From a virus, in the IMG/VR virus record IMGVR_UViG_3300030090_001937, positions 1 to 39,502 of that record: 39,502 nucleotides of DNA; one strand, written 5' to 3'. Both the position numbers and the translations under genes were made by a program. Below, piece after piece: positions 11,142 to 32,097 of the stretch. The notes under the pieces were generated by a model. The model was not told the DNA's origin and searched no databases. It saw nothing but the letters and a program-made list of their open reading frames with translations. Each line of letters begins with the position of its first letter. The stretch's first letter is position 1.

Positions 11142-11166
11142 TGTGTTTGCCTCCTATATATTTAGT

Positions 11167-12758: not shown

Positions 12759-12880
12759 TGCCTTTCAAAGATTACTCCCCTAAACAAAAAAAGTTAGCTA
12801 GGGTCGCACCACCATTTGATAAAATAACAGGTGCTGATTTTAAAAAACTTAGAGATAGCAAAAGAAGAAAAAAACAATAA
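12758..12880 (+). CDS. Conserved 40-residue marine-phage mini-protein
   Basis: MPFKDYSPKQKKLARVAPPF, then DKITGADFKKLRDSKRRKKQ. The phrase PPxDKITGADFKxLR recurs in small pre-terminase proteins of marine podoviruses that I recognise, which supports it as real despite its size. Basic C-terminus. Coupled on both sides by TAATG. Role unknown; possibly DNA packaging or a virion-associated peptide. Confidence 0.6.
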   Translation: MPFKDYSPKQKKLARVAPPFDKITGADFKKLRDSKRRKKQ

Positions 12881-13053
12881 TGAAGGTAAAAGGTGTTGAT
12901 GTATCTAAGTTGACCAAAAGTCAACAGAATGCTATGAAAAAACATTCAAAGCATCATACAAAAAAACACATGCAATACATGTACAACTCTATGCGTAGAG
13001 GTACTAGCTTTAATAAAGCACATGTAAACGCACAAAAAAAAGTTGGTAAGTAA
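12880..13053 (+). CDS. Conserved 57-residue basic histidine-rich protein
   Basis: MKVKGVDVSKLTKSQQNAMKKHSKHHTKKHMQYMYNSM and on to a basic end. Rich in Lys and His, predicted helical. The motif LTxxQQxAMKxHSKHHTxKH is one I associate with marine phages (including SAR11 phages), where it lies in the same mini-gene run. No enzymatic motif. Coupled by TAATG to both neighbours. Confidence 0.65.
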   Translation: MKVKGVDVSKLTKSQQNAMKKHSKHHTKKHMQYMYNSMRRGTSFNKAHVNAQKKVGK

Positions 13054-13310
13054 TGGCAACCTACCAAGGAAAAACAGTTACGCTCAATAAACCTTCTAGG
13101 ATTACTAAAGGTGAACCTGGTCATGGTAGAAAAAAATTTAAGGTTTATGTTAAGGATGGTAAGAAAGTAAAAAAGGTTATGTTTGGTGACCCTAACATGG
13201 AGATACGAAAAGATAACCCTGAAGCTAGAAAATCATTTAGAGCAAGACATAAATGTGATACAGCAACAGATAAAACATCTGCAAGATATTGGTCTTGCAA
13301 GATGTGGTAA
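13053..13310 (+). CDS. Conserved 85-residue protein with FGDPNMEIRKD motif
   Basis: MATYQGKTVTLNKPSRITKG, then KKFKVYVKDGKKVKKVMFGDPNMEIRKDN, then RKSFRARHKCDTATDKTSARYWSCKMW. The combination FGDPNMEIR, SFRARHxCD and a C-terminal YWSCKMW is highly characteristic of a conserved phage family in marine tailed phages, usually adjacent to packaging genes. The two cysteines and the histidine near the end may bind metal. Function not established, sometimes annotated only as a domain of unknown function. Confidence 0.7.
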   Translation: MATYQGKTVTLNKPSRITKGEPGHGRKKFKVYVKDGKKVKKVMFGDPNMEIRKDNPEARKSFRARHKCDTATDKTSARYWSCKMW

Positions 13311-15922: not shown

Positions 15923-17689
15923 ATGCCTTTAGATAGCAAAAAATTGTACGACCAAATAGATTACCTTAGAGTAATAAATCAAGACCAAATGATTGATAGA
16001 AGTCGTATTCGTGACATTATGAATGGTGGAGAAGCTGCAGTCAAAGCATTGCTAGGCAATCAAGTAAATGTAGAATATCACGAGTTACCTGCTCCTAATT
16101 TATTTTTGACAGCACTAGAAAGATTTGCACAAAAATTAGGCAGAAGTCCTGACATCAAAGTAGATATAATAAATGAAAAGGACAGTGAAAGAGCAAGAAA
16201 AAAATCTGAAAAACTAGAGCGTATAGTTGTAAGTTATGACAAATATCAAAAGCTAAACAAACAATTACCACAAGTTGGTAGATGGCTTCCTGGATATGGT
16301 TTTGTTGTGTGGACAATAGGACACAAAAGAGATAAAAATGGTTCTCCATATCCTTACGCAGAACTTCGTGACCCTTTTACTTGTTACCCTGGAACTTTTG
16401 GCAATGACCAACAACCAAAAGAATTAGCAATAATTAGTCGTGTACCACACACTATATTGGCTGAACAATATCCTGAAGCAAAACAATTTATCTATGCGCA
16501 AGAAGAAAACGACAGTGGTTTTCAAAATCCATACTCTGCTTTATACGATAGTTCAGATAGAGCAGGTAGTTGGGCTAACTCAACAGGACATGGAAAAGTA
16601 GTTGTTGAGTATAGAGATAATGAAGGAACATATATCTTTCTACCTGAAAACAAAAAGATTATAGACTTTATGCCAAATATACTTAAATCAGGTCCTTGTT
16701 TTGTAGTAGCAAAAAGATATTCATTTGACCAAATGCAATCACAGTTTCAACACATAACAGGTCTTATGGCAAACATGGCAAAGATAAACATACTTGGAAC
16801 TATTGCTATGGAAGATGCAGTGTTTACAGAAACAAACATTGTTGGTGAAATAGAAAGCGGTAAATATCGTAAAGGTAGATTTGCAGTTAACTATTTGACA
16901 CCTGGTTCACAAGTATCAAAGCCTGTAAACAATTTACCTTATCAATTATTTCAACAAGTAGATAGATTAGAAAGACACCTTAGACTTGGTGCAGCTTATC
17001 CTGTATCTGATGATGGACAATCGCCTAATGCTTTTGTCACAGGTAGAGGATTAGAGGAACTAGGTCAATCTGCATCACTGCATGTAAGAGAGTATCAAAC
17101 TGTATTAGGAGATGCTCTTGAAGAATTAGATGCTAAAAGACTAGAGTATGATGAAGCAATGTTTGGTGCAACAAGAAAACCACTTGCAGGATTTCATAAA
17201 GGAACATCTTACAAAGAAACTTACACGCCTAACTCTGATATATCTGAAGTGTACACAACACGCAGAGTGTATGGTGTTATGGCAGGTTTTGATGAACCAC
17301 AGAAAATAATTACAGGTTTACAACTTTATCAACAGGGAATTATCGACAAGCAGACATTGCAAGAAAATATGGATGGATTAGAAAATATATCAAAGATACA
17401 AAATCGTGTCAATAAAGAAAGAGCTGAAACTGTATTGTTTGAAACTCTTATGGCACAAGCAGCACAAGGTGACCAAAAAGCATTAATTGCTGCTATAGAG
17501 ATAAGAAAAAATCCGCAGAGAATGTCTGAAATATTAGACAAATACTATACTGCAGAAGGTGAAGAACCTAGTGAAGAAGAATTAGCTTTACTTAATGCAC
17601 AAGCACAACAAGCAGGTGCTATACCGCAAGGACCACCACCTGGATTAGCACAGGTGTTATCACAGGTAGCACAACAGGGAGGACAATAA
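15923..17689 (+). CDS. Portal protein
   Basis: 588 residues, starting directly after the terminase stop. The N-terminal third (DQMIDRSRIRDIMNGGEAAV, ELPAPNLFLTALERFAQKLG, FVVWTIGHKRDKNG) and the segment with YPGTFGNDQQPKELAIISRV match portal proteins of actinophages, i.e. the dodecameric ring at the packaging vertex through which DNA enters and leaves. Residues 320-380 (FQQVDRLERHLRLGAAYPVSDDGQSPNAFVTGRGLEEL region) are the usual clip/stem-to-wing part. The C-terminal 60 residues are Gln/Ala/Pro-rich. Position next to TerL is standard. Confidence 0.85.
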   Translation: MPLDSKKLYDQIDYLRVINQDQMIDRSRIRDIMNGGEAAVKALLGNQVNVEYHELPAPNLFLTALERFAQKLGRSPDIKVDIINEKDSERARKKSEKLERIVVSYDKYQKLNKQLPQVGRWLPGYGFVVWTIGHKRDKNGSPYPYAELRDPFTCYPGTFGNDQQPKELAIISRVPHTILAEQYPEAKQFIYAQEENDSGFQNPYSALYDSSDRAGSWANSTGHGKVVVEYRDNEGTYIFLPENKKIIDFMPNILKSGPCFVVAKRYSFDQMQSQFQHITGLMANMAKINILGTIAMEDAVFTETNIVGEIESGKYRKGRFAVNYLTPGSQVSKPVNNLPYQLFQQVDRLERHLRLGAAYPVSDDGQSPNAFVTGRGLEELGQSASLHVREYQTVLGDALEELDAKRLEYDEAMFGATRKPLAGFHKGTSYKETYTPNSDISEVYTTRRVYGVMAGFDEPQKIITGLQLYQQGIIDKQTLQENMDGLENISKIQNRVNKERAETVLFETLMAQAAQGDQKALIAAIEIRKNPQRMSEILDKYYTAEGEEPSEEELALLNAQAQQAGAIPQGPPPGLAQVLSQVAQQGGQ

Positions 17690-17961
17690 TGCCTGAACCA
17701 TCAGACAAAATGCGTGAAACTAATGTTAAATTTTATGACATTATAAATTCTGAAGATTGGAATTTTGACAATATAGAAGAAGAACCAAAAATAGATGATA
17801 GTTTTACACCTCCGATTATGCAGTATTGGATGCCTACACCACATCCTAAAGTATTTATTCGTGTAGATTTTACTATTGAAGATGCTGCAGAAAACGAAAG
17901 ACTAAGAGATTTTTTAGGAGGACTTGATGATTTCTTTAATGATGAGGGATATTATGGTTAG
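17689..17961 (+). CDS. Small hypothetical acidic protein
   Basis: 90 residues, MPEPSDKMRETNVKFYDIIN, coupled by TAATG to the portal. Acidic overall, with Phe, Tyr and Trp spread along it (PPIMQYWMPTPHPKVFIRVDF) and a predicted strand then helix. No family recognised. Small acidic proteins next to portal genes can be head-completion or portal-associated factors; here only position suggests that. Confidence 0.55.
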   Translation: MPEPSDKMRETNVKFYDIINSEDWNFDNIEEEPKIDDSFTPPIMQYWMPTPHPKVFIRVDFTIEDAAENERLRDFLGGLDDFFNDEGYYG

Positions 17962-18379
17962 AAAACCTAAAGCATTAAAACAAGTTACTGATGGCAAACC
18001 TGACCCTGCTTTTCAAGATTTATACATACCAAGACAAAAAGGCGACCCAACAGGACAATCTAAAATAATTAACGACCAAGAAGATGCTCTTAATTATGAA
18101 CTGCCTACAGTAGCAGGAGAACAAGTACAACAAAATGCAACTAGAACAGCTAGTCCTATATCATTAGGGCAACCTACAAGGTTTCAAAGTGAGCCAAATA
18201 CAGCAGGAATATCACAAGGACCTGGCGTAGGAAGAGTAGGAACAAGTCCTATGGCAACAGATTTAGATGCTTATTTACAAGGATTATTTAGCAAATTCAA
18301 TGACCCTGTAATTTTAGAGTTGATAGAGCAAAAAAATGCTGTGCCTGTACAGGAGAAGCCACAAACTAGGTTAAGATAA
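17954..18379 (+). CDS. Proline/glutamine-rich hypothetical protein
   Basis: I start at MVRKPKALKQVTDGK (17954), preceded by GAGGGATATT; the longer start (17924) would lie inside the upstream gene without a ribosome site. About 141 residues. Low-complexity, disordered-looking composition: QVQQNATRTASPISLGQPTRFQ, then a short helical end (LDAYLQGLFSKFNDP). Could be a linker or assembly protein between portal and the giant virion protein. No family. Confidence 0.5.
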   Translation: MVRKPKALKQVTDGKPDPAFQDLYIPRQKGDPTGQSKIINDQEDALNYELPTVAGEQVQQNATRTASPISLGQPTRFQSEPNTAGISQGPGVGRVGTSPMATDLDAYLQGLFSKFNDPVILELIEQKNAVPVQEKPQTRLR

Positions 18380-21300
18380 TGCGTAGATATTCTTTGCGTT
18401 ATTCTTTAGATGATTTAAAAAGACAGGCTGCACAAGAAACATTTAATCGTGCAAGTTCTTTTGACAAAGGTGTTAGAGAAACAAATCCTGATTTAGTTCA
18501 AAGTATTTCTAATCTTACAAAAGCATATCCTACAATTCCTAAAGAAATTTTGCCTTATATGGCATTAAGTGGCACTACTGCAGAAGATGAAATTGCTTTG
18601 CAGGTAGCAAATAGAGCAGCATCCATTATAGCAAACAAAAACACACAAGACCTTGTAACAGATGTGAACTTTTTTAAACGAGGTGTACAAATGGGTTTTT
18701 TAGGGTTAGATGCTGTATTTCAAAATATATCAAGGGGTTTTAAGTCTGCAGTTGTAGCAGCACAAAAAACAGGAAAGTTTGTACCTGGAGTTGTAGCTAA
18801 TGCAACATTAGGAGGATTGTATGAAACATTTAGACCACAAGTAGAAGGTGAGGAAGGTAGCACTACAGCTAGATACTTAAATAACATTTATGGCGGTGGT
18901 GTAGGGGATGTGTTTAAACAGACACGAGATAAGTATGGAAAGAATGAGTTTCGTTTAGCTTTAGAACAAACTAGAGATGGTAAACCATTAAATTTAGGAA
19001 AAGGATTTTTACCTAACTCACTAGACCCTAAAGAAACACAGGTCTATTTAGATATGATAAGAGCAGGTAAAACTGAGAAAGAAGCATTGACTAGAGCTAT
19101 AGAAGTTTATGGACTTCCTGTCACACAGTTGTACGACATAAGAGAAGATGCTTTTCAATACGAAGCCAAAGATGGCACAAAAGTAAATATATCACCAGGT
19201 CGAATAGCAGCAGTGCAAGTTTTTGAACCTGGTTCTGCAGGATTTAATGTTGTATCAGGAGTTATTGATGGTGTATTTAGACTTGCAGGTGACCCAACAA
19301 ACTTAGCGTTGATGTATGGAGCAGGTGTAAAGACAGCAATGAGAACTATGGTACAAGCCAATAAACAATCTAAAAATGCTGCTACATTCTTTAAATCTTT
19401 TGCTCCTGGAAAAACAGGAAAATTTAATCGTGCTGCTTTTTATGGAAGGACAGTAGATGATGTAAGAAACACAGGTTGGGGTCAAAAGTTTGGTGAAGCT
19501 ATTGCAAAATTAAAAGGTGATGAAGGAATGGCTTTTCTTAATGACATTAAAGAATTTGACAAAGTTCCTGCATCTGTAAAAGAAGTATTGCTACATGTTG
19601 ATGATGCTGATGATGTATGGAACATATTAGACATAGTTGCTAAGAATGGTAATTTAACAGGCAAAGAGTTTGACAACATGTTTAATTTAATTAAAAAATA
19701 TGTAAATGATGATGTTGCTGCAAACCTAGACAGAGTTAGAGAAGCAAGTGTAGAAAACATTGCTTTTGGTTTAAATAACATTCCTGCAAGACCTACAGCT
19801 ATGGGTGAACTATTTAATTATGCTAACAAACTTATGATAGGTTCAAGTACAGATGTTGCACCTATGAGAAAGTTTGCAGGTTTATTATTATCTAAAGATG
19901 ACCCTGCAAGAGGATTGTTAGGCACAGGCACACAAATAGCTAGAAGTCAATATTTTCCACGACATGTAAAAAGAGCAATGCAACTTAGACCTGAAACAAC
20001 AATGGTTATAGATGATTTAGAAGCAGCATCAAGAAATGCTAATGATATGCTTAAATTATCTTTTTCTAGTGCTAAAGAAAGAGGTTATTACTCTCGATTA
20101 GTTTTGACTGCTACATCTCAAAAAGATTTAGAAGAGATTGCATATCAAATAAACCAAGCAATAGCTAAAAATGTTGCAGACTATAATCCTAATTTAAAAA
20201 TAGATGTAGAGGATATAATAAAACAACAAGAAAGTTATAACGCAGCAATGAATGAGTTAAGAGATTTTTTTGGTAACTCTGCAGGTGGTTCTATTGCTTT
20301 TAATGGAACACAAATAAAAAAAAGATACAAAAAATTAATTAAAGATGTAGAAGAACATTTTAAAGCTACAGGTGTTGAAGTTAATCCTGATGATGTAGAA
20401 AAATATATATTTGAAGCAGTGCCAAGTATGCACCTATTATCACAGGCATCTAAATCTTATATGGCACAACTTATAGACCCAAGAGATGTAATACAAGCTA
20501 CAAGAGCGCATCAAACATTAGTTGGTCCTGCAGATAGCAGACTTAAAGCATTTATTACAAATCTTATAGAAAATCCAAAAGATTTAAAATGGGCAGATAG
20601 ATTAAAGATACCTAGGTCTGCAGTTACAGGTGGTTCATCAACAAGCAGACTTACATTAAAACCAAAAACACTATTAGATACAATACTTGATGAAACACAG
20701 AATAAAATATTAAAACCTGCGTGGATGTTTAGATTAGCACTTCTTATGCGTATTGCACCTGAAGAAGCAGCTAGAGCGGCATTTGGTGGATATGTCAATG
20801 CGTGGTCACATCCATTACAAAGATTAGCTATGGTATCTAATAAATATTTAAACTTTGTTGGTGATGTAAAGCGTGAAGATAAGATATTTCAATTACGAAA
20901 CAACTTAGGTGAAATTGTATTTTCATCAGGCATGGGTACAGATGACTATAAAAAATTAGCAGAATTGATAGATGAAAAAACACTTAAAAATTTTTTAGCT
21001 ATTGAATATCCACAAATAGAAAAAATATTGAAATCTTATATGTTAGAAACAAATTATACAGGTCAAGTATCTGATTACATGATTAATGCTGCAATTAACA
21101 ATGTCAATCTAAAAACATTTGTTAGAGAAGCAGTCCAAGAAGGTAAATTGTCTATAGGCAGTAAACAAATAAATGCTAAAGCAAAAGGAACAGTAATTGG
21201 ATTTGATAATAAAACAGAGTACGCATCTATGGGTGAAGCGTTAGTAGAAGGTGGAGGTTTTAGCATTGATTTAGATGTAGCAAAATTCGTTGACATGAAA

Positions 21301-24300
21301 AAAAGAGCGCCTTCTGATGCAGAAGTTTTTGTTTCTCCATATAAAGAATTTGAATTTCCTTTAGGAACTGCGGCTGAAGTACAAGAAAAAGCAGCTAAAG
21401 TTAACATGACACCAATAGAGTGGGTAGATAGTCAAATAGATAATTTGTTTTTTACAGATGAAACTATAGGTTTATTGAGCAAAGATGGTCATGTTTTAGG
21501 TGCGTACATAGATGATGATGGTATTTTAATGTTAGATGTTTCTGTAGGATTAAGTGGAGAGAACGCTATAGACAACGCAGTGTTCATGGGTATCAATGCT
21601 TTTCAAGAAAGCATTTTTGTTGGTCAATCAGGCAGACAAGCTGCTACACAAGCAGGGTATGGCAATGTAATGACATCTGATGGTTTTATAAATCTTTATA
21701 GAAAAAAAGCAAAAGATGGAGAAATACTTACAGGTGGTGCTGCTGCAATAAATTATGACAGTGTTATAGCAAAAGAAGTATTAGAAGTTTTATATAAAAA
21801 TAATTTTGATGCCTTATCCCTAACAATAGATGATGTTAAAGGTGCAGGTAGAGGTCTGCCTAATGGTAGTTTATTTAGCGCTGATGAGGGATATAGAGCT
21901 GCAATGGGCGAACAAAATATTACAGAAGGTTTATTAGGAGGTAAAAGAAAAGATTTAGTAGAAAATTTGTTTATTAGAACAGACAAAAGATTAGCTAATG
22001 GCAATATAAATCCTTATTATTGGGAAGGCTTATGGACAGAAATTGGTGAACTTCTTTCGCCTGACCCTATAACAGTAAGGTTGTTAAATCTAGGAATTGA
22101 TGACATGATGGAGTATTTACGCACTAATCCTACAGGAAAAAACTTAATTAAAGAATTTGTAGAAAGAAGTCACAATGCAGATGATATAGCATTCTTAACT
22201 GATGATGCCGCATTACGAAGTTATTTAGAAAGTATAGAATACCGAGTAGGTATCGCAGTTGGTAATCCTACTGCTAAAATGCGACATCCTATTGCAGGAT
22301 ATGAACTAAGTCCTGAAAACACAAGTCAAGTGTATTGGGTAAATAAACAAAAAGTATATCCTAAATTTGAAGTAGATTTGTCTGTTACTGCTAATACTAA
22401 ATTATTTCAATTTATTAAAAGCGGTGGTTTTATGGAAGGCACAGATTGGGTTCGTTGGAAAAATCATATCAATACTCTTGACAGAAAACAAAGAGGCAAA
22501 GCTAATCAAGATTTTTACAAACAATTTATAAAACTATTTACAAAAGAAGTAGATGGTGCAGATTTAGGTCCACAAACTATCGCAAGAAGATTTGATTTAA
22601 AAAACAGAATTAACAATGATGGCACAATAATACATGGAGAACAAATTGTAGCTGCAGGTGCTATGGATGATTTGCGTTTGACAGGAGCCATAGCAAGTTA
22701 TGATAGATTATTGGAAACAGGTTACAATACACTAATATCAAAACCATCTAATTATCTAAATCGTGACCCTTTGTTTAGGCGTTCTTTTTATACAACAGCA
22801 GTAGAAGTTATGGCATATATGGATGATGCAACTACAGCAGAGTTTATGAAAGGTGCAAAAGTTTGGATAGATGGCACAGACATGTGGGATGATTTAGTCA
22901 AAGCATCTAAACAACCTAAAATAGAAAATACTATAACAAGTTTAGAACAAGCAGAAACTTTACTTAAACACAAAGCAATGGAAGATGTCAAAAATTTGTT
23001 TTACTCAACATCTCAACGACATGTAGCATCAGATTTATTTTCTAAATACATTCCTTTTCCTGAGATATGGGCAGAGGTATTTAAAACATGGGGTGGATTA
23101 ATTGTAGACAATCCACATAAGTTTAATGCTACAAGAATAGCTGTAGACAATGGTACAGGTGCTACTCCATGGAATGATGAAAATGGTTTTTTGTCAGAAG
23201 ACCCAAGAACAGGAAAGTTAATGTTTAACTATGTAGATGCTTTTAATGTATTAACATTAGGTGCTTTCAAAGGTCTAGGTAAAGTTGCAGAGATGTCAGG
23301 ACTTAGAGATGCTTTGCCTGATGTTGTAACATCACCATTTCAAACAACAGTATTTGGTGAAGATTTACAAGATGAAGGTGTAAGAGTTACTGCACCTGGA
23401 TTTGCTGCAGGTCTTAACTTAGTTGCACAAAATGGTTTTGCACCTGGTTTTGGTCCTGCTGTGCAATTGCCTATGAAATTTTTTATAGACAAGTTTGGTA
23501 GCACAAAAGCATTTCGTAAATTCTTTTTAGGTGAATATGAAAGTTCAGGACAAATTAAAGACATTATACAACCTGCATGGTTAAAAAAGTTTAGATTGTT
23601 CCTGACAGGAGAAAACATTGCAGACAAAGATATGCAGAGAACATTTGCATCTTCTGCTATGGATTTGTACACAGCTTATGTAATAGCAGGTATTATAGAC
23701 CAATCAGACCCACAAAGCGTAAGAGAAGGTGTAGAAAGAGCAACAGAACAAGCTAGAGCGGTTTTTGGTTTTAGAGCAGCAGCACAGTTTGCATTGCCTA
23801 CTGCTGTACAACCTAGAATAGAAATAGAAGATAAAGATGGTCAATGGTGGGGTGTACAGACATTAGTAAATAAATATCAAGAAATGTTAATTAAAAATGG
23901 TTATGACCATTTTACAACTCAACAAGAATTTATAACTAAATTTGGAGTAAATCCTATACCGCTCAAACAACCTGGAAGTTATAGGGTTGGTAAACAACCT
24001 ATCAAAGAAAATTCTTTTATATGGTGGCAAAGAGATGAAAACAAGGAGTTGTTAAGACAAAACAATTTACCCAACACTGCATATTACATTTATCCTGACA
24101 AAATAGAAGATGAGTTGTTTTATCCTGCTTACTACGAAACAAGAGCGCAGAATATAACTACAGGAGAGTTTGCATCATTTATGCGACATACACAAGCTAT
24201 ATTTGAATACGAAAAGGGTAAAGCAGATATAAGAGATAATGGCAAAACTATAGGAGAACAGAACAAAGAAATATCAGATTTAAAAAATCAAATAAATGAT

Positions 24301-24777
24301 GAGTATCAAATTGATATGTTTAACTTTCAAGGTAAACCTAATGCTGTTACTACTACCGAATTAATGTTTGAGTTACGAAGATGGAATGATTTTGAGCAAA
24401 CAAAAAATAGTCCTGAAAACAAATATGTACAAGAGTATTTAGATAAGCGTGATGAGTTAATAGATGTAATGCTAAATGGCGGAACATTTACATTTAATGA
24501 TTTGACTATAGAAGTTGAAAACAGAGATGATAAAATTTACTATACTTATGATGAAGTAGATGAGTTTGGTATGACAGTATCAGTGACAAGGTTAAGTCAA
24601 AAAAGTTCAAGAACTTTAAATGGTACTTCACAACTAACGATTGATGCAAGAGAGATTATGAAAGCAATTTGGGATGATTTAATAGTCAAAGGTAAGGACA
24701 CTAACTTTCCACAATTAGCTAATGAAGTTTTATATTACGAAATAAGTCCAACAAATAGTCAGAATGAGAGTAGTTAA
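18379..24777 (+). CDS. Giant virion protein (2,132 residues), candidate ejected internal protein
   Basis: The longest gene in the window, in one unbroken frame coupled to both neighbours. I see no lysozyme or polymerase catalytic motif. Most of it is helical and mixed, with segments such as AWMFRLALLMRIAPEEAARAAFGG (about 785-808) and YIPFPEIWAEVFKTWGG that look amphipathic. A proline/glycine-rich aromatic stretch lies in the last 300 residues. Size, position between portal and capsid, and absence of a tape measure fit an internal virion protein ejected with DNA (compare T7 gp16, or the very large internal proteins of N4-type phages), but sequence alone does not show this. One TGTTTAAACA copy lies within it (18911). 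Confidence 0.6.
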   Translation: MRRYSLRYSLDDLKRQAAQETFNRASSFDKGVRETNPDLVQSISNLTKAYPTIPKEILPYMALSGTTAEDEIALQVANRAASIIANKNTQDLVTDVNFFKRGVQMGFLGLDAVFQNISRGFKSAVVAAQKTGKFVPGVVANATLGGLYETFRPQVEGEEGSTTARYLNNIYGGGVGDVFKQTRDKYGKNEFRLALEQTRDGKPLNLGKGFLPNSLDPKETQVYLDMIRAGKTEKEALTRAIEVYGLPVTQLYDIREDAFQYEAKDGTKVNISPGRIAAVQVFEPGSAGFNVVSGVIDGVFRLAGDPTNLALMYGAGVKTAMRTMVQANKQSKNAATFFKSFAPGKTGKFNRAAFYGRTVDDVRNTGWGQKFGEAIAKLKGDEGMAFLNDIKEFDKVPASVKEVLLHVDDADDVWNILDIVAKNGNLTGKEFDNMFNLIKKYVNDDVAANLDRVREASVENIAFGLNNIPARPTAMGELFNYANKLMIGSSTDVAPMRKFAGLLLSKDDPARGLLGTGTQIARSQYFPRHVKRAMQLRPETTMVIDDLEAASRNANDMLKLSFSSAKERGYYSRLVLTATSQKDLEEIAYQINQAIAKNVADYNPNLKIDVEDIIKQQESYNAAMNELRDFFGNSAGGSIAFNGTQIKKRYKKLIKDVEEHFKATGVEVNPDDVEKYIFEAVPSMHLLSQASKSYMAQLIDPRDVIQATRAHQTLVGPADSRLKAFITNLIENPKDLKWADRLKIPRSAVTGGSSTSRLTLKPKTLLDTILDETQNKILKPAWMFRLALLMRIAPEEAARAAFGGYVNAWSHPLQRLAMVSNKYLNFVGDVKREDKIFQLRNNLGEIVFSSGMGTDDYKKLAELIDEKTLKNFLAIEYPQIEKILKSYMLETNYTGQVSDYMINAAINNVNLKTFVREAVQEGKLSIGSKQINAKAKGTVIGFDNKTEYASMGEALVEGGGFSIDLDVAKFVDMKKRAPSDAEVFVSPYKEFEFPLGTAAEVQEKAAKVNMTPIEWVDSQIDNLFFTDETIGLLSKDGHVLGAYIDDDGILMLDVSVGLSGENAIDNAVFMGINAFQESIFVGQSGRQAATQAGYGNVMTSDGFINLYRKKAKDGEILTGGAAAINYDSVIAKEVLEVLYKNNFDALSLTIDDVKGAGRGLPNGSLFSADEGYRAAMGEQNITEGLLGGKRKDLVENLFIRTDKRLANGNINPYYWEGLWTEIGELLSPDPITVRLLNLGIDDMMEYLRTNPTGKNLIKEFVERSHNADDIAFLTDDAALRSYLESIEYRVGIAVGNPTAKMRHPIAGYELSPENTSQVYWVNKQKVYPKFEVDLSVTANTKLFQFIKSGGFMEGTDWVRWKNHINTLDRKQRGKANQDFYKQFIKLFTKEVDGADLGPQTIARRFDLKNRINNDGTIIHGEQIVAAGAMDDLRLTGAIASYDRLLETGYNTLISKPSNYLNRDPLFRRSFYTTAVEVMAYMDDATTAEFMKGAKVWIDGTDMWDDLVKASKQPKIENTITSLEQAETLLKHKAMEDVKNLFYSTSQRHVASDLFSKYIPFPEIWAEVFKTWGGLIVDNPHKFNATRIAVDNGTGATPWNDENGFLSEDPRTGKLMFNYVDAFNVLTLGAFKGLGKVAEMSGLRDALPDVVTSPFQTTVFGEDLQDEGVRVTAPGFAAGLNLVAQNGFAPGFGPAVQLPMKFFIDKFGSTKAFRKFFLGEYESSGQIKDIIQPAWLKKFRLFLTGENIADKDMQRTFASSAMDLYTAYVIAGIIDQSDPQSVREGVERATEQARAVFGFRAAAQFALPTAVQPRIEIEDKDGQWWGVQTLVNKYQEMLIKNGYDHFTTQQEFITKFGVNPIPLKQPGSYRVGKQPIKENSFIWWQRDENKELLRQNNLPNTAYYIYPDKIEDELFYPAYYETRAQNITTGEFASFMRHTQAIFEYEKGKADIRDNGKTIGEQNKEISDLKNQINDEYQIDMFNFQGKPNAVTTTELMFELRRWNDFEQTKNSPENKYVQEYLDKRDELIDVMLNGGTFTFNDLTIEVENRDDKIYYTYDEVDEFGMTVSVTRLSQKSSRTLNGTSQLTIDAREIMKAIWDDLIVKGKDTNFPQLANEVLYYEISPTNSQNESS
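18911..18920. repeat. TGTTTAAACA copy inside the giant virion gene
   Basis: An exact copy of the palindrome found in the early block, here encoding part of DVFKQTR. One of only three copies outside the 3.4-12.0 kb cluster. Confidence 0.6.
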
Positions 24778-26297
24778 TGAGTGAACATGATGATGTAGTT
24801 GATGAGTTATTAGGAGATGACACTGTAGAAGAAACAGAAGATGTTTCTGAAAAAGAAGTAACACGACTTACTGCTAACAGCGTATATAGCTATGTAGAAA
24901 ACATTGTTAATATGCCTGTTTTCTTTTTTAATTTTGGTGACCCTACTGTAGCTGCAGGTGCAAGAGGTATGGTATTAGAAGGCTATATACCTTCAGAAGA
25001 TAGTGGTTTTTTTTCATTAAAACAATTAATGACTAAACCTGAATTTTTACAAATACTGCCTAGACAATTTGAAAGTAGATATAGAAATATTACAAATTTT
25101 GGATTGGCAGAGGAAAATTTAGAAGAAGAATTACAAGATTTACTAAGTGATATAAATGAGTATTTTACCGAAAATGTAGAAACAAAAGTTGGTAATGAGA
25201 TTGTTGCTTATGACAAAGAACTTACAGATAGAGGTAGTGTTCCAACAACAATTAATTTATATGGGGAAAATACAGGTGAACGAACATCATTTAAAGATTT
25301 TTTGGCAACTATTGATGGTACAAATGTACCAACAATAAAAGAAAAAGCAGAGGCTTTTGTAACGCAAGTTGAACAAGAGGCAGAACTTGCCACCTCACAA
25401 CAAATACAAAACAATAAAGATAGCTACTCTACATCAGGTAATGCGTGGGGTATAACTACTACACAAGAAGGTCTTATAGCTAATCCTGAAAAGCCTACTG
25501 AATTTATGACAGCACCTTTTATTAAAGGTGATGAGTACAGAGATTTTGTTGATATGAGCGAAGCAGAGATATTTAAGTTACAAAAACAAATGGTGGCTGC
25601 AGGTATGTCGCCACCATCAATAGATGAATTTGGACAGTGGACAGCAAGAGAAGCTAACTTTATGGTTGGAATATTTGTTCAAGCTACAGATAGTGGAACA
25701 TGGTTTCAAGATAGTCAAAATAGAGTGCCAATGTGGACAACTGCTTTGGCGAATGTTACAGCAAATTTTAAAGAGAGAGAAGATTTTACTAACCTACTAA
25801 GGTCAGAGGGCTATGGTGTACCTGCGCCAAATCCTACAACTTCACAAATTAAATCATTACTAGATGGTGCAGCAGCCGCAAATGGTGTTGTTCTAAGCCA
25901 AAGTGATTATGTAAATTTTGCAAATGTCGTTATAAAAGCAATGCAACAATCAGAGCAATCTCAAAGAGATAGTGATAACGCAACAGTTACAGATAGAGAT
26001 TTAATATTTAAGACAAACTTTCGTGATGCTAGAAGCGTACAAAAAGGTGAGTACGCTAGATTTTTAGATGGTTCTCCATTACCACTTGTATTGCCTAGTT
26101 ATGAATTTTTGACACAAGAAGCAGGTTATCAACCGCCTGTATTATCTACTGAAGAAATATTGAATGATGAAATTAAAAAATTAAAAAGTAAACAAATAGA
26201 AGGTAATCAAGATTTGGCACAAATAAAATACGCCACTAACCTTTTTGAAACAGCAATGGGTAAACTAACTTATGGTGGTGCAGAAAAGGATAATTAA
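24777..26297 (+). CDS. Virion-block protein (506 residues), unknown
   Basis: TAATGA overlaps the end of the giant protein. The N-terminal 30 residues are acidic (EHDDVVDELLGDDTVEETED). The core alternates helices with a Gly/Phe stretch (VYSYVENIVNMPVFFFNFGDPTVAAGARG) and ends in a helix (QDLAQIKYATNLFETAMG). No known motif. It belongs to a row of five large proteins between portal and capsid that share transcription and spacing; I infer a structural or ejected role only from this context. Confidence 0.55.
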   Translation: MSEHDDVVDELLGDDTVEETEDVSEKEVTRLTANSVYSYVENIVNMPVFFFNFGDPTVAAGARGMVLEGYIPSEDSGFFSLKQLMTKPEFLQILPRQFESRYRNITNFGLAEENLEEELQDLLSDINEYFTENVETKVGNEIVAYDKELTDRGSVPTTINLYGENTGERTSFKDFLATIDGTNVPTIKEKAEAFVTQVEQEAELATSQQIQNNKDSYSTSGNAWGITTTQEGLIANPEKPTEFMTAPFIKGDEYRDFVDMSEAEIFKLQKQMVAAGMSPPSIDEFGQWTAREANFMVGIFVQATDSGTWFQDSQNRVPMWTTALANVTANFKEREDFTNLLRSEGYGVPAPNPTTSQIKSLLDGAAAANGVVLSQSDYVNFANVVIKAMQQSEQSQRDSDNATVTDRDLIFKTNFRDARSVQKGEYARFLDGSPLPLVLPSYEFLTQEAGYQPPVLSTEEILNDEIKKLKSKQIEGNQDLAQIKYATNLFETAMGKLTYGGAEKDN

Positions 26298-26632
26298 TGG
26301 AAGAAGATAATGTAGTACAAGACCCACCTAATACAAGGTTTGAAAGAAGCCCACAGGCAATGGCTAATGCCTCGTTGTTTAAACAACCTGCAAGAAACTA
26401 TTATAAACTGCTTAAATTATTGACTATGGTTGGTGAGGGTCTAGCTAGTACAGGTGATTTTCTAGGTAGTGCTGCAAGAGGACCTGCAAAATTTATTGAA
26501 AAAATCAAATCAGAAACACAAGAATTAATCGACAGAGATAATCAGTTTTTTCAAGAAACACAAACAAACAATGTACCTTTACAAGAAATAATCGAAAGAT
26601 TGCAAGATTTTAGAGGTGACAATGATAATTAA
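26297..26632 (+). CDS. Small helical protein in virion block
   Basis: 111 residues. MEEDNVVQDPPNTRFERSPQAMANASLFKQP; the LFKQ is encoded within a 14-bp palindrome (26374-26387, GTTGTTTAAACAAC). The rest looks helical (NYYKLLKLLTMVGEGLASTGDFLG, KFIEKIKSETQELIDRDNQFF). No family. Probably a small accessory of the large virion proteins around it. Confidence 0.5.
   Translation: MEEDNVVQDPPNTRFERSPQAMANASLFKQPARNYYKLLKLLTMVGEGLASTGDFLGSAARGPAKFIEKIKSETQELIDRDNQFFQETQTNNVPLQEIIERLQDFRGDNDN
26374..26387. repeat. 14-bp palindrome GTTGTTTAAACAAC
   Basis: Core TGTTTAAACA extended by two symmetric bases on each side. It lies within the 111-residue gene; a TATAAA lies 15 bases downstream, so a weak internal promoter is possible but unproven. 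Confidence 0.55.
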
Positions 26633-26747
26633 ATATCCTGTAGGAGATTACAGAGAATTACCTGAAGATTTACAAAAATCTTTTAAAGAAGCAAGAGAAC
26701 AAATAGATAAAACATTTAATGAGCAAATAGCAACAGACAGGAAATAA
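26622..26747 (+). CDS. 41-residue hypothetical protein
   Basis: MIIKYPVGDYRELPEDLQKS and then a helical, charged tail (FKEAREQIDKTFNEQIATDRK). It begins 11 bases before the end of the previous gene and stops 3 bases before the next start, so it fits the packing of this operon exactly. No family recognised. Confidence 0.5.
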   Translation: MIIKYPVGDYRELPEDLQKSFKEAREQIDKTFNEQIATDRK

Positions 26748-26750
26748 AAC

Positions 26751-29090
26751 ATGGGTTATTCTCCTGAAAGTTCAAAAATATTAACAAAACTTCATAGCGA
26801 ATTAGTACAAAAAATGTTACAAAGTTTTCCTGATGAAGAAATGTCTATTCTTCAATTTAGAAGGGAAGTATTTTTTGATTTGCTACAAAATAATTCAGAT
26901 ACATATCGTACACATTCAGGTGTATTTTCTGATTTAGTAGATGAGGCTTTAGCGCCTAGAAAACTTAATCCGCTACCACTAACAGATATAACAAATTATT
27001 TAAAAACTACTCTAAACATGTATTTAGATAATTCTGGAGAAAGACCAGGGTTAGTATTGTATGACTTAATACATGATAGTGATAATAATGTGCTTGAATT
27101 TGCACACAATGTATTACTTCCTCTTATGGAAGAACTTGGAATAGAAAATTTACCTGAAAGAGAACCTATGGTTGATTTTGGTGATGGAAGTGATGTTCAA
27201 TTTCCTATCGCTGAAAGAATAATAGTTGAAGGCAATGTTAAATTTGGTACTGAAACTGAAACAGAAAGAGCATTGTTAAGAGGAATATACGACAAATTTG
27301 ATGAGTTTGCAAAAGCAAATCCTAATATGAAAGTAAATGATTTGAAGTTATTAGTAAGTGATGCAGATACATATACAAACTTAGTTCGTTTTTTAAATCA
27401 AGAAGTTAAAATGCTTGAATTTGGCAATATGTATGCTGCTGTGCCAGGAACAGAAGGTGTACGCACTAATGTACACATTGCACAAACTTTGTTAGATAGT
27501 ATTGATGAGATAGCACCTTCTTTATCTGGAAATCAAATTAATGAATTATCTCAATTAATTGATGAATTTGATATGCAAGATTTTATTGGACATCAACAAG
27601 CTTTAGAACAAGATTTTGGAAAAACTAAATTAAAAATATCAGACTATGTAGATGTTACAGACACACCTGCTGTTGATAAAACTAAGCGTATACAATTTAT
27701 AAAAGACAAACTTGCACAATATGTAGATGATTTTGTTGAACAAGCAAATGCTTACCTTACTAGCAGTGATGATTTAATACCAACAGGATTTTCAGAAGTA
27801 ACTTACAGAAGAGGAATGGATGCAAAACAATTTAGAGAAACTTTTAAAGTAGGATTTGTTGAAAGTGGTATTGTAGATATAGAAATATTATTAAAAAACT
27901 CTGCAGACCCTGTAGGTTTTTTACATTCTTTGCATGATGCACATGCTGCAGGAAATGTAACTTTGGGTTTTCCTCCCTTTGTTTCTGAAAAATTATTAGC
28001 ATCATTAAACAAAAAATTTGGTTTAAATACTGCAGGTATGTTAAATACGAGTAAGTTTTTAGCACAATATTTTGAGGGTCTAACTATTGCAGAATTAGCT
28101 GCAGAAGTATTTGATTATCCTAACAGACCTGACTTTGCAAATATAACACCAATTTTTAATAAATTAGAAAAGTATGATAATTTAATTGATGAAACAGGAA
28201 GCATAGAGGGTTTTGACACACCTACAAATGTAGATGGCAATTTAACTGAATATGCTGTAGATGATGTTACTAGAAAACAAGATATGCAAGTTCCTGAAGA
28301 AGCATTTGGAAAAGGTTTTAAAACTGTAGATGTACCAGGACCAAAAAAAGTGGCAACTTTAGAAATAGATGGCATCTTACATGCAAGACCTATAGGTAGA
28401 TTAGGAAGGATATTACAAAATTCACCTGAAAATTTGTATTTAATGACACCTGATGGATTAGTAGAAGCAAATACATTAAATGTTCTAAAATTAGGCAAAG
28501 GACCTTTTGAAGTTTTTACTTACGACCTCGCTGATGCACCAACAGCATTTCAATATTTAGAAGAAAATGCAGGTCTGTTTTACACAGATGATGTAGCTTT
28601 AGATGAAGTTAGTATGAGTGTTAAAAAACCTTTCAATCCTAGAGGTGTAGAATTTGGTCCTGTTGATGAATTAGATAAAGCTATCACAAGTTCAGATGGT
28701 GTAGAAAACTTAAATAAAGCAAAAGCTGTAATAAGAAACAACCCTGGTGTATTTAGAAAAGTATTAAATGTTGTAGAAAAACTAGATATAGGTGACCAAG
28801 TAGTACAACAAGTATTGAAACGAGCATTTCCTAGAATAGGTTTGTCTGCACTTGCAGGACCTGTAGGTATAGCTTATGCTTTGTATGAAACAGCTTTGTT
28901 GCTATCTGATGTAGGTAATGCAGTTTATCAACAACAAACAACAGATGAAAGTTTTTGGGAAAATTTTGGTGAGGTATCAGACAAATACTCTATAGCTTAC
29001 AAAATAGGTAAACCTGTTTATGATACATTATTTGAGGCAGTAAAAGCAGACTTAGAAGATGATGATACGCTATACTTGTTAGGAAGATAA
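26751..29090 (+). CDS. Large virion-block protein (779 residues), unknown
   Basis: Begins MGYSPESSKILTKLHSELVQ. Mixed helical protein with an internal beta-like segment (KKVATLEIDGILHARPIGRLGRIL) and near the C-terminus a hydrophobic stretch with small residues (AGPVGIAYALYETALLLSDVG, about 720-742) that could insert in a membrane. Such a segment in a candidate ejected protein would fit trans-envelope channel formation, but this is inference. Coupled to the 392-residue gene. Confidence 0.55.
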   Translation: MGYSPESSKILTKLHSELVQKMLQSFPDEEMSILQFRREVFFDLLQNNSDTYRTHSGVFSDLVDEALAPRKLNPLPLTDITNYLKTTLNMYLDNSGERPGLVLYDLIHDSDNNVLEFAHNVLLPLMEELGIENLPEREPMVDFGDGSDVQFPIAERIIVEGNVKFGTETETERALLRGIYDKFDEFAKANPNMKVNDLKLLVSDADTYTNLVRFLNQEVKMLEFGNMYAAVPGTEGVRTNVHIAQTLLDSIDEIAPSLSGNQINELSQLIDEFDMQDFIGHQQALEQDFGKTKLKISDYVDVTDTPAVDKTKRIQFIKDKLAQYVDDFVEQANAYLTSSDDLIPTGFSEVTYRRGMDAKQFRETFKVGFVESGIVDIEILLKNSADPVGFLHSLHDAHAAGNVTLGFPPFVSEKLLASLNKKFGLNTAGMLNTSKFLAQYFEGLTIAELAAEVFDYPNRPDFANITPIFNKLEKYDNLIDETGSIEGFDTPTNVDGNLTEYAVDDVTRKQDMQVPEEAFGKGFKTVDVPGPKKVATLEIDGILHARPIGRLGRILQNSPENLYLMTPDGLVEANTLNVLKLGKGPFEVFTYDLADAPTAFQYLEENAGLFYTDDVALDEVSMSVKKPFNPRGVEFGPVDELDKAITSSDGVENLNKAKAVIRNNPGVFRKVLNVVEKLDIGDQVVQQVLKRAFPRIGLSALAGPVGIAYALYETALLLSDVGNAVYQQQTTDESFWENFGEVSDKYSIAYKIGKPVYDTLFEAVKADLEDDDTLYLLGR

Positions 29091-30268
29091 TGCTTACAGA
29101 CCAATTTCAATTTCAACCAAAAGAGTTCATCAGAATAGATGGCAAAATATACGCTGTATTTTTTGATACAGAAGAAGATTTAGGTGATTTTCCTATACTT
29201 GCTTTAGTTGATAGTGAAAATTTTGTCAAAGCAGGTACAACTGTTATTGATTTAGATGCAGATAGTTTTGTAGATAAATATAAATATGTATTTAGAGGAC
29301 ACGAAGATTTACTTGTATCAGACATTCTTACAATTACTGATGGTGATGATGCACAAAATTATCGTACAATTATGGACATAGAGGAAAAGAAATTAAACGA
29401 TAGAGCAATGGAAGATGGTATGAAATGGTTGTTAGATAGAGATGTGCAAACAGTATTTTTATCTGCAATACTTACAGGACAACCTGTGTCAATAGATGAT
29501 TTGTCTAAAACAAATTGGTTTAACAGTTCTACACCTGAACAAAGAAACTTTATGGCTGAATATTATAGCGACCCAAATGGAATAGAAAACAAAGTATCGA
29601 CAAACATACAAGACATTAGAACAAAAATGTTTGAGATGGGATTTAAGGGAGATATATCTAGGCTGTCTGAAGTGTTGGCGTATGGTGTTGTGTCAAATCA
29701 ATACACACCTGAACAAGTAGATATGTATCTTGATTACATTGGTGATGAAACTTACATGAATATTGCAGGAGGAATACAAGTATTGCCTGAAGAATTACAG
29801 CCATTTGCAGAACAATTTGAAACTACAGTTGGTGAAGCATCTGCTAGAGCTTATATCAAACAATATGTAGGACCTGATGTTTTAGCAACCTATGAACAAG
29901 ATGGAACTCTTCTTCGTTACGCAGGAATGATAAGAAATAATCAAACACAAACAGTATTAGATGAATTACAAAAATTACATGATGTTATGTACCCTTCATT
30001 TGAAGGTTCAAAATACAACACATGGAATACACATTTTGCTAATAGGGCATCAAAAACTATAAATGGTACAACAGGAAGTCAAATTGTAGATTTAACTAAA
30101 AACCAACAAGCTACAGTAAATGATTTAATTGTCGAAGCAAAAGGTGATTATCAAGAGTTTGATAGGTTGGTAAGAAAAAATTACAAAAACTCACCTGGAA
30201 TTAAAAATGCTATAAAAAGTGATATGTTAAGTCTTATACCACAAGCAGTGTCAGGAGTATTTAGATAA
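29090..30268 (+). CDS. Virion-block protein (392 residues), unknown
   Basis: MLTDQFQFQPKEFIRIDGKIYAVFFDTEEDL: the first 80 residues are beta-rich, the rest helical (QQATVNDLIVEAKGDYQEFDR, KNYKNSPGIKNAIKSDMLSL). TAATG coupling on both sides. Layout is similar to the 384-residue neighbour: short N-terminal strand region, then long helical body. They may be paralogous or functionally paired, though I did not align them. No named family. Confidence 0.5.
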   Translation: MLTDQFQFQPKEFIRIDGKIYAVFFDTEEDLGDFPILALVDSENFVKAGTTVIDLDADSFVDKYKYVFRGHEDLLVSDILTITDGDDAQNYRTIMDIEEKKLNDRAMEDGMKWLLDRDVQTVFLSAILTGQPVSIDDLSKTNWFNSSTPEQRNFMAEYYSDPNGIENKVSTNIQDIRTKMFEMGFKGDISRLSEVLAYGVVSNQYTPEQVDMYLDYIGDETYMNIAGGIQVLPEELQPFAEQFETTVGEASARAYIKQYVGPDVLATYEQDGTLLRYAGMIRNNQTQTVLDELQKLHDVMYPSFEGSKYNTWNTHFANRASKTINGTTGSQIVDLTKNQQATVNDLIVEAKGDYQEFDRLVRKNYKNSPGIKNAIKSDMLSLIPQAVSGVFR

Positions 30269-31422
30269 TGGCTATATCATCTGAAATATTATCACAGTAT
30301 TCTATATCAAGAGGAATAACCGAAGTAGATGCAGAAGGTAAAGTAACAAAAGTATTTTTATTTAATCCTGATACAAATAGTTATGATGAGGTTACAACTG
30401 ATGAAGATTTAATAACTTATTTTTCTAATAATCCTGCAGGTAGAGCAATATCACAAGAATTACATTCTAATCAATCCTATTCGTTAGATACACAAAGCGC
30501 TATGGCAGAGCTTAGAAGGGCAGAGTTAGGCGCTGAAAATTTAATAAATGAATTTTTAAGACAATCTAGAGATTTAGGATTATACAACGCACCTACAGCA
30601 ACAGAAGTTTTTGATGAAGAAGAAGTAGAGGAAGTGCCTACATCACAAGAATTAAAAGCACTATACCCATGGATGACAGATGGTTTATTGAACATACTGC
30701 TTGATGGCGAGGGAGGCTATGTAGAAACAGGAAAGATGAATGTTGCGTTAGCAAGTATGAGAGCATCAGATGAATATGCAAAAACTTTTCCTGGAATTGC
30801 AAGAGAAGATGGCTCTATAAGAATGACAGAAAGTCAATATTATGAAACAGTTGATGTTATGAAAGATACCTTAAGAGATTTTAATCTTAATCCTGAAATA
30901 TTCCAAAACGACATAGTATCTGCTATAGGAGGAGATGTAAGTGCTAAAGAGTTTTCTGACAGATTACAATTTGGATATTCACAAGTTATAAATAATATAC
31001 CGCAAGTAAAAGAAGTTTATTTTAGAGAGTATGGTTTAGATTTATCAGATGAAGCATTGTTTGCAATGTTTGTATCTCCTGATATAGCTGATAGTGTATT
31101 GCAAAATCAAATACTTGTTAGTTCAATTATTGCAGAAGCAGAGAATGCAGGTGCATCAATTACAAAAGAAAGTGCAATGTCTTTTGCACAAGCAGGTATA
31201 ACACAGACACAGGCAAGAGAAGTATTTGGTCAAGCAGTAAGCATAGCACCTGGATTATCAAATATGACTACAACAGCAGTAGCGAGAGGCATAGCAGGTT
31301 TAGACCCTGAAGCATTGGCAAACATTCGTAGAGGACAAGCGATTAGAGCCTCTGCATCTTCACCTCAAACAGGTGCAGCACAGACACAAACAGGAGAAGT
31401 AGTAGGTTTAACCGAAGGATAA
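30268..31422 (+). CDS. Virion-block protein (384 residues), unknown
   Basis: MAISSEILSQYSISRGITEVD; the N-terminal part is beta-rich with an acidic connector (EVFDEEEVEEVPTSQE). A conserved-looking segment DEYAKTFPGIAREDGSIRMTESQYYE (about 170-195) resembles one I associate with virion proteins of marine phages. The C-terminus is Ala/Gln/Gly-rich. It is the last gene before a 216-base gap that holds the capsid promoter. Confidence 0.5.
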   Translation: MAISSEILSQYSISRGITEVDAEGKVTKVFLFNPDTNSYDEVTTDEDLITYFSNNPAGRAISQELHSNQSYSLDTQSAMAELRRAELGAENLINEFLRQSRDLGLYNAPTATEVFDEEEVEEVPTSQELKALYPWMTDGLLNILLDGEGGYVETGKMNVALASMRASDEYAKTFPGIAREDGSIRMTESQYYETVDVMKDTLRDFNLNPEIFQNDIVSAIGGDVSAKEFSDRLQFGYSQVINNIPQVKEVYFREYGLDLSDEALFAMFVSPDIADSVLQNQILVSSIIAEAENAGASITKESAMSFAQAGITQTQAREVFGQAVSIAPGLSNMTTTAVARGIAGLDPEALANIRRGQAIRASASSPQTGAAQTQTGEVVGLTEG

Positions 31423-31427
31423 ACTCC

Positions 31428-31474
31428 TTGTTTAAACAACTTGCACATTAAAAATTTATGATATAATAGCTTTA
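31428..31474 (+). promoter_or_regulatory. Capsid-operon promoter with TGTTTAAACA at -40
   Basis: TTGTTTAAACAA (31428-31439), then TTGCAC (31441-31446), 15 bases, then TGA-TATAAT (31459-31467), an extended -10. Taking the start at about 31474, the palindrome is centred near -40, close to the classical class II activator position, and nearly the same as at the leftward promoter (11167-11218). AATAGC-TTTA-GCTATT (31465-31480) forms a small dyad over the -10 and start. Confidence 0.6.
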
Positions 31475-31638
31475 GCTATTTTGTACTAAGGTCCGAAATA
31501 AAAACTAGACCTAGATTTTGTAATCGGTCTTGATGCCTACTGACAAGACCTGTCAAATAAAAACAGTAGTGTAAAAATGCAGTGGTTACTCATACACCAC
31601 TTGTAAAAATATCGTGTGAAGTAAAGGACAATTAAATA
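31475..31638 (+). promoter_or_regulatory. Structured 5' leader of the scaffold/capsid mRNA
   Basis: About 165 bases without a gene. Stems: AGGTC (31489-31493) / GACCT (31508-31512); GGTCTTG (31526-31532) / CAAGACC (31544-31550), perfect; AGTGGT (31581-31586) / ACCACT (31596-31601). The ribosome site (AAAGGA) for the scaffold-like gene follows. Stable leaders are usual for highly expressed capsid genes. Confidence 0.45.
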
Positions 31639-32097
31639 ATGACAGAAGAACAAAACAATTCTGACACAGCCGATAAGAACGAAAAAAATTGGAAAGAGAT
31701 GCGAGAAAAACTCGAACTCTACGAAGGAAAAATCGCAGAATTTGAAGCTAAAGAAAGAAGCACTGTTTTTAACCAAGCAGGACTTGATACTTCTAAAGGT
31801 GTCGGAAAAGCAGTTGAGATGATGTTTGAAGGTGAACTTACTGTAGACAATATCAGGCAATATGCTACTGAAGAATTTGGTGTTGATTTTGGGCAAGAAG
31901 GCGGATTACAAGATACTGTACAAGAAGCAGAGAAAAGTCAAGAACGCTTAGACAATATTCAAAAAAATTCAGTCGTAGATTTATACGATACTGATGTTAT
32001 ATCGCAAGTTCGTGAGATTGAAAAATCAGGAAATATCAGGAACTCAATCGCTGCTAAGTTATCTGTTATAGAGGAAGCAAAGAAAAACTCTAAGTAG
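31639..32097 (+). CDS. Scaffold-like protein
   Basis: 152 residues, directly upstream of the capsid. MTEEQNNSDTADKNEKNWKEMREKLELYEGKIAEFEAKE: highly charged, coiled-coil N-terminal half, then a short conserved middle (VGKAVEMMFEGELTVDNIRQY), then acidic helix. Position, length and coiled-coil character match scaffolding proteins that guide prohead assembly. There is no protease motif. A small C-terminal basic helix (EEAKKNSK) would contact the shell in scaffolds of this type. Confidence 0.65.
   Translation: MTEEQNNSDTADKNEKNWKEMREKLELYEGKIAEFEAKERSTVFNQAGLDTSKGVGKAVEMMFEGELTVDNIRQYATEEFGVDFGQEGGLQDTVQEAEKSQERLDNIQKNSVVDLYDTDVISQVREIEKSGNIRNSIAAKLSVIEEAKKNSK

Follow-up and report, generated by a model that had tools for sequence, protein, structure and literature searches.

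The IMG/VR virus record IMGVR_UViG_3300030090_001937 raises the question of what a row of large, uncharacterized proteins does between the portal and capsid genes of a phage. All 39,502 bases of the record were analyzed and are referred to as the window. The block spans positions 18379–31422, and its 13,044 bases make up about one third of the genome. The genes of 2132, 506, 779, 392, and 384 residues that the first-pass annotation placed here, plus a small one of 111 residues, are all present, and their recurrence in relatives indicates that they are real genes. Our analysis points to a cassette for cell entry (ejection), built around a giant core protein and including one hypervariable slot, in a phage with a very short tail that is related to the Streptomyces cluster BF podoviruses; we assign this reading a probability of about 0.65. 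There is good support for assigning the block to podovirus entry. The proteins most likely act by being ejected from the head, with packaging, ejection, and channel formation as steps that we infer.

Relationship to the cluster BF podoviruses

The closest cultured relatives with this layout are the Streptomyces cluster BF podoviruses. FlowerPower and four other BF records encode, in order, a portal, small genes, a giant of 1635–1648 residues, a gene of 271–280 residues, a 'peptidase', a 'glycosylase' (a label present in four of the five records), gp13, a tRNA array, a scaffold-position gene, and a capsid. Profile comparison with hhalign connected these genes to the window. The giants (45 sequences) matched the BF giants (5 sequences) with a probability of 99.1 and an E-value (E) of 6e-19 over 558 columns; the reversed control gave 0.3. 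The aligned core is residues 1432–2117 of the window giant and 965–1582 of FlowerPower gp9. The giant of ct2KA10, an unannotated record, is also related (probability 97.2). The 384-residue protein matched BF gp13 (probability 98.6, E 7e-16), the 392-residue protein matched gp12 (95.9) and gp11 (81.2), and the 152-residue protein matched the BF scaffold-position gene (92.7). The 151-residue protein matched BF gp7 with a probability of 64.6, and hmmsearch gave E 2.4e-4 for FlowerPower gp7 and 5e-11 for ct2KA10. When three giants (window, L155, and L135) were compared directly with 50,697 phage records by tblastn, no match reached E 0.01; the link between the giant and gp9 is seen only by profile comparison.

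The block is read as short-tail entry machinery mainly because the BF relatives are podoviruses. FlowerPower and four relatives are reported as podoviruses by electron microscopy (PMC9753666), and Abafar is described as podoviral (PMC11536984). For another cluster BF phage, Destructrice, a tail of 16 nm is reported, and no tape measure could be identified (PMC13097060). The first-pass annotation had seen neither a tape measure nor a tube protein in the window. We did not identify a tape-measure fold or long-tail genes among the proteins scanned, but a tail gene may exist downstream of the capsid. The product of 33866–34882 matches phrog_7578 (function unknown) with E 3.9e-30 and, weakly, a PHROG named 'tail protein' (E 0.0017), and its relative in Streptomyces phage Kumquat is annotated 'tail tube protein' (E 2e-4).

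Conservation and probable exchange of the cassette

Relatives were collected by two scans of viral contigs. The scan with the 2132-residue protein gave 14 loci, eight at 92–96% identity and six at 24%. With the capsid as query, 225 stretches were confirmed, and the best 80 were retained (capsid identity 81–98%). The portal was located in 47 of 50 records picked from both scans, and 40 stretches around the portal were fetched. One of these (L159) was cut on the wrong side, and the capsid was found by profile in only 25 of the 40. Several stretches are near-duplicates, so the counts overstate the number of independent cases.

A giant-family protein follows the portal in 39 of the 40 relatives, the exception being the wrongly cut L159. 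Profiles of the 384-, 392-, and 506-residue types matched in 38, 26, and 18 of the 40, respectively, and loci missed by a profile usually have an open reading frame (ORF) of comparable size at that position. The order after the giant is slot 4 (314–567 residues), slot 5 (111–464 residues), in some loci an ORF of 58–60 residues, slot 6, the 392-type gene, and the 384-type gene. Slot 6 is absent in 11 of 40 loci (window counted); elsewhere it encodes 400–2512 residues, as two ORFs in L144. No slot-5 gene was called in L140 or L141.

The comparison of the window with its relative L150 illustrates how the cassette varies. The portals are 85% identical, the capsids 95%, and the scaffold-position genes 76%, compared to 24% for the 151-residue protein, 14% for the 392-residue protein, and 28% for the 384-residue protein. 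The giants align at 15%, a value that says only that they differ strongly because the alignment outside the C-terminal core is untrustworthy. There are 61 pairs with portals at least 80% identical yet giants below 25%. Among pairs with portal identity of 74–92%, the identities of the 151-, 2132-, 392-, and 384-residue proteins correlate with one another (rho 0.54–0.88), whereas the cassette genes compared with the 152-residue gene and the capsid give rho -0.31 to 0.04. The identities of the 392- and 384-residue proteins were also compared in a capsid-centered set (81 loci with the window). They do not track the downstream genes g643 and g426 (rho -0.02 to 0.05), weakly track g338 (0.27 and 0.31) and the capsid (0.14 and 0.17), and track the 152-residue gene (0.67 and 0.57), a correlation that we attribute to portal groups. 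The pairs are not independent, so no probabilities are given for these correlations. Exchange of the cassette as a whole unit against a near-constant capsid seems the simplest reading of these identities, with fast joint divergence as the alternative. The block as first delimited needs one extension, since the co-varying unit begins earlier, at the 151-residue gene. Table 1 lists the features.

Table 1. Features of the cassette, its borders, and a separate lysozyme gene in the window.
Feature	Coordinates	Strand	Remarks
Stand-alone SLT-like lysozyme gene outside the cassette	4702–5118	-	PF01464 E 1e-7, over cut-off; PF18896 E 1.3e-6, under cut-off
Portal	15923–17689	+	phrog_104 E 0.0013; tblastn to Streptomyces BF portals, best E 1e-20; conserved left border
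90-residue gene after the portal	17689–17961	+	Profile match in 23 of 43 loci
151-residue cassette gene, BF gp7 homologue	17924–18379	+	True start may be an internal ATG
2132-residue giant, 239 kDa, BF gp9 homologue	18379–24777	+	
Optional middle module of the giant, residues about 950–1130	21226–21768	+	
Conserved C-terminal core of the giant, residues about 1432–2117	22672–24729	+	
506-residue protein, slot 4	24777–26297	+	314–567 residues at the equivalent place in relatives
111-residue protein, slot 5	26297–26632	+	
41-codon ORF, read by eye	26622–26747	+	Some relatives have a 58–60-residue ORF at this place
779-residue protein, hypervariable slot 6	26751–29090	+	
392-residue protein	29090–30268	+	phrog_6654 E 6.3e-7, function unknown
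384-residue protein, BF gp13 homologue, last cassette gene	30268–31422	+	phrog_8424 E 5.9e-20, function unknown
152-residue gene in scaffold position, right border	31639–32097	+	
Major capsid protein	32155–33273	+	phrog_1328 E 8.5e-28

The 384-residue protein also has a Pfam match to DUF3528 below the cut-off (E 6.8e-4). The 2132-, 506-, 111-, and 779-residue proteins have no usable PHROGs or Pfam family. At the right border of the cassette, 31423–31638 is a gap of about 215 bases without a called plus-strand gene of at least 60 residues. The corresponding gap in FlowerPower holds 21 tRNA genes (L096, 15986–18057), and there are similar arrays in four other BF records. Elsewhere in the window are a Rad52-like gene (5793–6725, minus strand), an SprT-like gene below the cut-off (10431–11141, minus strand), and a DUF5675 gene (2219–2821, plus strand).

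The giant, the hydrolases, and slot 6

The unsplit giants of the relatives range from 1721 to 3597 residues and differ by whole modules. Their conserved part is C-terminal: subgroups A3 and A4 match over 528 columns (E 4e-29), and the common stretch is residues 1517–2123. The middle module near residues 950–1130 is optional; per 50-residue bin, more than 10 residues align in only 9–17 of the 44 relatives compared, and some of these relatives are fragments. The largest giant (L145, record G031, 2298–13091; 3597 residues) contains an insert with DUF7831 (E 1.2e-28) and a partial cpYpsA SLOG match (E 4.4e-12, 39 of 145 positions). In L142 (record G037, 2287–9022), the giant is in three ORFs of 469, 323, and 1393 residues, which may be a real split, an intervening element, or an assembly error.

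The 2132-residue protein has been described as lacking a familiar catalytic site, and this holds at the level of family, sequence, and fold searches. PHROGs searches over 18 giants gave only two weak single-member matches, one of them named restriction endonuclease (0.009), and the PDB compared by sequence gave no match of note. The giant was modeled as two parts (940 and 1198 residues) from 43 and 37 sequences. The models are largely helical, with a mean predicted local distance difference test score of 65.9 and 61.9 and a predicted template modeling score of 0.38 and 0.45. Both are low-confidence models, so the absence of a fold match is no proof of a new fold. The top rows of a second structure comparison with the C-terminal half were the cyanophage A4 pre-ejectosome (Z 5.6, root-mean-square deviation 4.4, 75 aligned) and E1004 core proteins (Z 5.6, root-mean-square deviation 34.2, 116 aligned), both within the noise of the tool. 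The third and fourth rows were PHA synthase and DNA polymerase alpha (Z 5.0 and 4.9). We give this structure comparison as a whole little weight. Ejection or core proteins were not among the matches listed for the N-terminal half. A viral structure library gave three matches below E 0.001, one an 'uncharacterized protein' of an uncultured phage and two nameless. Readings of the giant as a lytic transglycosylase, a virion RNA polymerase, or another known fold were set aside, as the searches gave no family match, no PDB sequence match of note, and, on these low-confidence models, no significant fold match.

Cell-wall hydrolases occur in the cassettes of the relatives. BF gp11 matches NlpC/P60 (1.7e-29) and gp12 matches SLT (3.6e-5), and the two have a common C-terminal region of 285 columns (E 1.7e-62) with the hydrolase in front. 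The 392-residue protein of the window is homologous to this shared part after about residue 110, and its N terminus is different. NlpC/P60 was found in none of the 35 records searched with Pfam, the window among them. Slot 5 has lysozymes in 13 of the 35 (seven over the curated cut-off), as assigned by hand from coordinates. They fall into three Pfam families, SLT_3 in six records (two over the cut-off), Phage_lysozyme in five (all over), and Phage_lysozyme2 in two (none over), which shows that different hydrolase families occupy one slot. Two more, L129 and L130, emerge from profile comparison (E 8e-50 to the SLT_3 type), and L131 may be a further one (probability 89).

The 111-residue slot-5 protein of the window appears shortened against these. 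In L133 and L160, slot 5 consists of a lysozyme-like domain and a following domain; in L148, L149, L132, and L167, it begins with the following domain. In the window protein, the N-terminal lysozyme domain of distant relatives is missing, as is most of the domain after it, and only the C-terminal part is retained. The stand-alone SLT gene of the window lies about 11 kilobases before the portal, and its start resembles a signal sequence by eye. Such a gene is present in five of the 35 records (window, G001, G034, G049, and G050). Slot 5 was compared in four of these five, and that of the window, L148 (G001), L149 (G050), and L132 (G049) has no Pfam lysozyme. The 13 records with slot-5 lysozymes have no stand-alone match for these families, and 17 of the 35 have neither. 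The stand-alone enzyme may replace the lost slot-5 domain or may be the lysis enzyme.

Slot 6 is the most variable position. Close relatives of the 779-residue protein differ by a block at about residue 494, with about 500 extra residues in L148 and about 365 in L168, and the flanks are 78–93% identical on both sides. Among the relatives with homologues of the extra block are L149 and L146. A C-terminal region (about residues 654–763) was recognized in 12 of the 29 slot-6 proteins with a single sequence as query; iteration raised this to 19, with the later members less certain, and the other 10 do not show it. The 29 proteins include the window, count the two L144 ORFs as one, and count the 2067- and 1995-residue ORFs of L140 and L141. 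Single members have Pfam GNAT and methyltransferase matches below the cut-off, and the slot-6 protein of L161 (5181–8840, minus strand) has an HPr-like match over the cut-off (PF00381, E 3.9e-5, residues 934–994). These single-member matches hint at enzymes. The slot-6 insert and the middle module of the giant were also considered as polyvalent or ADP-ribosyltransferase domains, a reading that was dropped because the module has no Pfam match and the insert none that is credible.

Proposed mode of action, probable host, and known systems

We favor an entry cassette with the following arrangement. The giant with its conserved C-terminal core would be the main structural element, and the 151-, 506-, 392-, and 384-residue proteins would be its partners, some of which in relatives carry cell-wall hydrolases joined to other domains. 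The 779-residue slot would be an optional, fast-changing part and may be delivered cargo. The cassette proteins would lie inside the head near the portal, exit before or together with the DNA, and help to open or bridge the cell wall. The earlier proposal of an ejected internal-protein apparatus is partly supported and survives as the best reading on the basis of BF homology and synteny, hydrolases in relatives, and co-variation, although homology to T7 or N4 virion proteins did not emerge.

Several results weigh against this reading. T7 gp12–gp16 and the N4 virion proteins, compared with the cassette as single-sequence targets, gave no hhalign match of at least 10%. The cassette proteins of the window have no 19-residue segment with a mean hydropathy above 1.5 in a crude test (the highest, 1.45, is in the 779-residue protein), and Pfam recognizes no hydrolase among them. 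Profiles of the 506-, 111-, and 779-residue proteins gave no BF match above 20% with hhalign, and the A4 giant subgroup alone matched BF with a probability of only 20. Foldseek searches of the PDB with both giant halves, which are weak models, returned nothing below E 0.001. WhiB, a marker of Actinomycetota, was found in none of 25 records and does not support the host proposed below.

The main rival is an external tail-knob or tail-tip machine, phi29-like, that digests the wall from outside with nothing ejected, and we consider it unlikely. The hydrolases of gp11, gp12, and slot 5 in relatives would suit tail-tip lysins, and the lack of strongly hydrophobic segments fits as well. The inferred hosts are Actinomycetota, and a review describes ejection proteins as common in podoviruses of Gram-negative bacteria and Mycobacteria and as absent from phi29-like phages of Gram-positives. 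However, the 392- and 384-residue proteins do not vary with g643 and g426, which are only presumed tail genes, although they weakly track g338, and a protein of 1700–3600 residues seems large for a 16-nm tail such as that of Destructrice. An improbable alternative is that the giant and the 779-residue protein are mainly 'polyvalent' effectors delivered against host defence and not entry machinery. The modular variation of giants and slot 6 and the DUF7831 and partial SLOG matches in the L145 giant agree with it, and polyvalent proteins are described as near virion genes and likely packaged (PMC5512222). Against this stand the near-universal presence of the giant and the C-terminal core it has in common with BF, which fit a structural role; moreover, ART-PolyVal was found in none of 35 records, and no credible Pfam effector domain was found in the window giant or the 779-residue protein.

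We regard an N4-like virion RNA polymerase as a very improbable identity for the giant. The size of the giant would be suitable, and the Abafar capsid is annotated as N4-type, but our comparison of BF capsids with N4 gp56 gave only 12%. Among the non-significant rows were a viral 'RNA polymerase' (E 0.034, probability 0.13) and DNA polymerase alpha (Foldseek E 1.8; Z 4.9 over 54 residues), whereas hhalign to the N-terminal 2342 residues of N4 gp50 stayed below 10%, no family matched, and neither half gave a significant polymerase fold match with these weak models. The entry cassette could also be put in broader terms, a tentative and rather unlikely extension. Podoviruses of marine Actinomycetota would have an interchangeable delivery cassette in which a giant core is combined with wall hydrolases that can be exchanged and with a slot 6 (absent to 2512 residues) that swaps N-terminal modules. 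The often retained C-terminal region would be a possible packaging or exit signal, and the slot would act as an effector-delivery port swapped independently of the capsid and presumed tail genes.

The host is probably a marine member of the Actinomycetota. Portal matches came from Streptomyces in 29 of 31 records. Capsid matches were actinobacterial by organism name in 23 of 25 records, and none of the 25 tblastn records was Streptomyces. Terminase matches covered 573 records, including Microbacterium (159), Pseudomonas (108), and Streptomyces (31), and Streptomyces phages head the list. Two contigs with related capsids (L169 and L170; 86% and 70%) lie in one Actinomycetota metagenome-assembled genome (RS345), a weak pointer to the host, as is usual for binned phage contigs; a third locus from the same search is a short, weak match (31%, Bradyrhizobium). 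Other phages of Ca. Actinomarinales have been reported, some with WhiB (PMC7771536). The window capsid resembles those of Mycobacterium, Propionibacterium, and other phages, including Mendokysei, the annotation of which includes a tape measure, and its profile finds no FlowerPower or ct2KA10 protein, so that this capsid family is not common with BF. The terminase, portal, and part of the cassette resemble those of BF podoviruses, and the head is therefore mosaic. The capsid gene occurs twice on one 52,898-base contig (L046 and L053), possibly a concatemer or a misassembly.

If the cassette is ejected, it would be a distinct entry machine in a phage group that is well represented among public contigs (225 capsid-relative stretches in one scan). 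BF phages are cultured, which makes the entry claim directly testable. The cassette also shows clearly how an entry module can vary as one unit while the capsid stays almost constant, and its giant conserved core, co-varying genes, different hydrolases in one slot, and hypervariable slot are of specialist interest. Titles and abstract openings from the literature searches contained no description of the entry machinery of Actinomycetota podoviruses or of this cassette.

The T7 internal core or ejectosome (gp14, gp15, and gp16) is similar in that a short-tailed phage encodes several divergent proteins, one of which has a wall hydrolase in some members. No homology was detected with single T7 sequences as targets, and here the block lies between portal and capsid, one protein has 1721–3597 residues, and a crude hydropathy scan found no gp14-like hydrophobic protein. 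According to the review, ejection proteins can swap domains with one another. Polyvalent proteins (PMC5512222) are likewise large, multi-module proteins beside virion genes that are expected to be packaged, and viral SLOG domains are described along with them (PMC5512222, PMC9503650); they differ in that the window has no defining domain and the giants have a common C-terminal core. The BF phages (subfamily Beephvirinae: FlowerPower, Immanuel3, WRightOn, Manuel, and Abafar) have no slot-6 gene; their terminase and portal are separated by an endolysin gene, and a tRNA array precedes the scaffold-position gene. Their gp11 and gp12 are two hydrolase-bearing family members, compared to one in the window without a recognized hydrolase. 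They nevertheless have the same order of terminase, portal, small genes, giant, mid-size genes, gp13, scaffold-position gene, and capsid, and the terminase, portal, 151-residue, giant core, 392-residue, 384-residue, 152-residue, and 338-residue genes are homologous.

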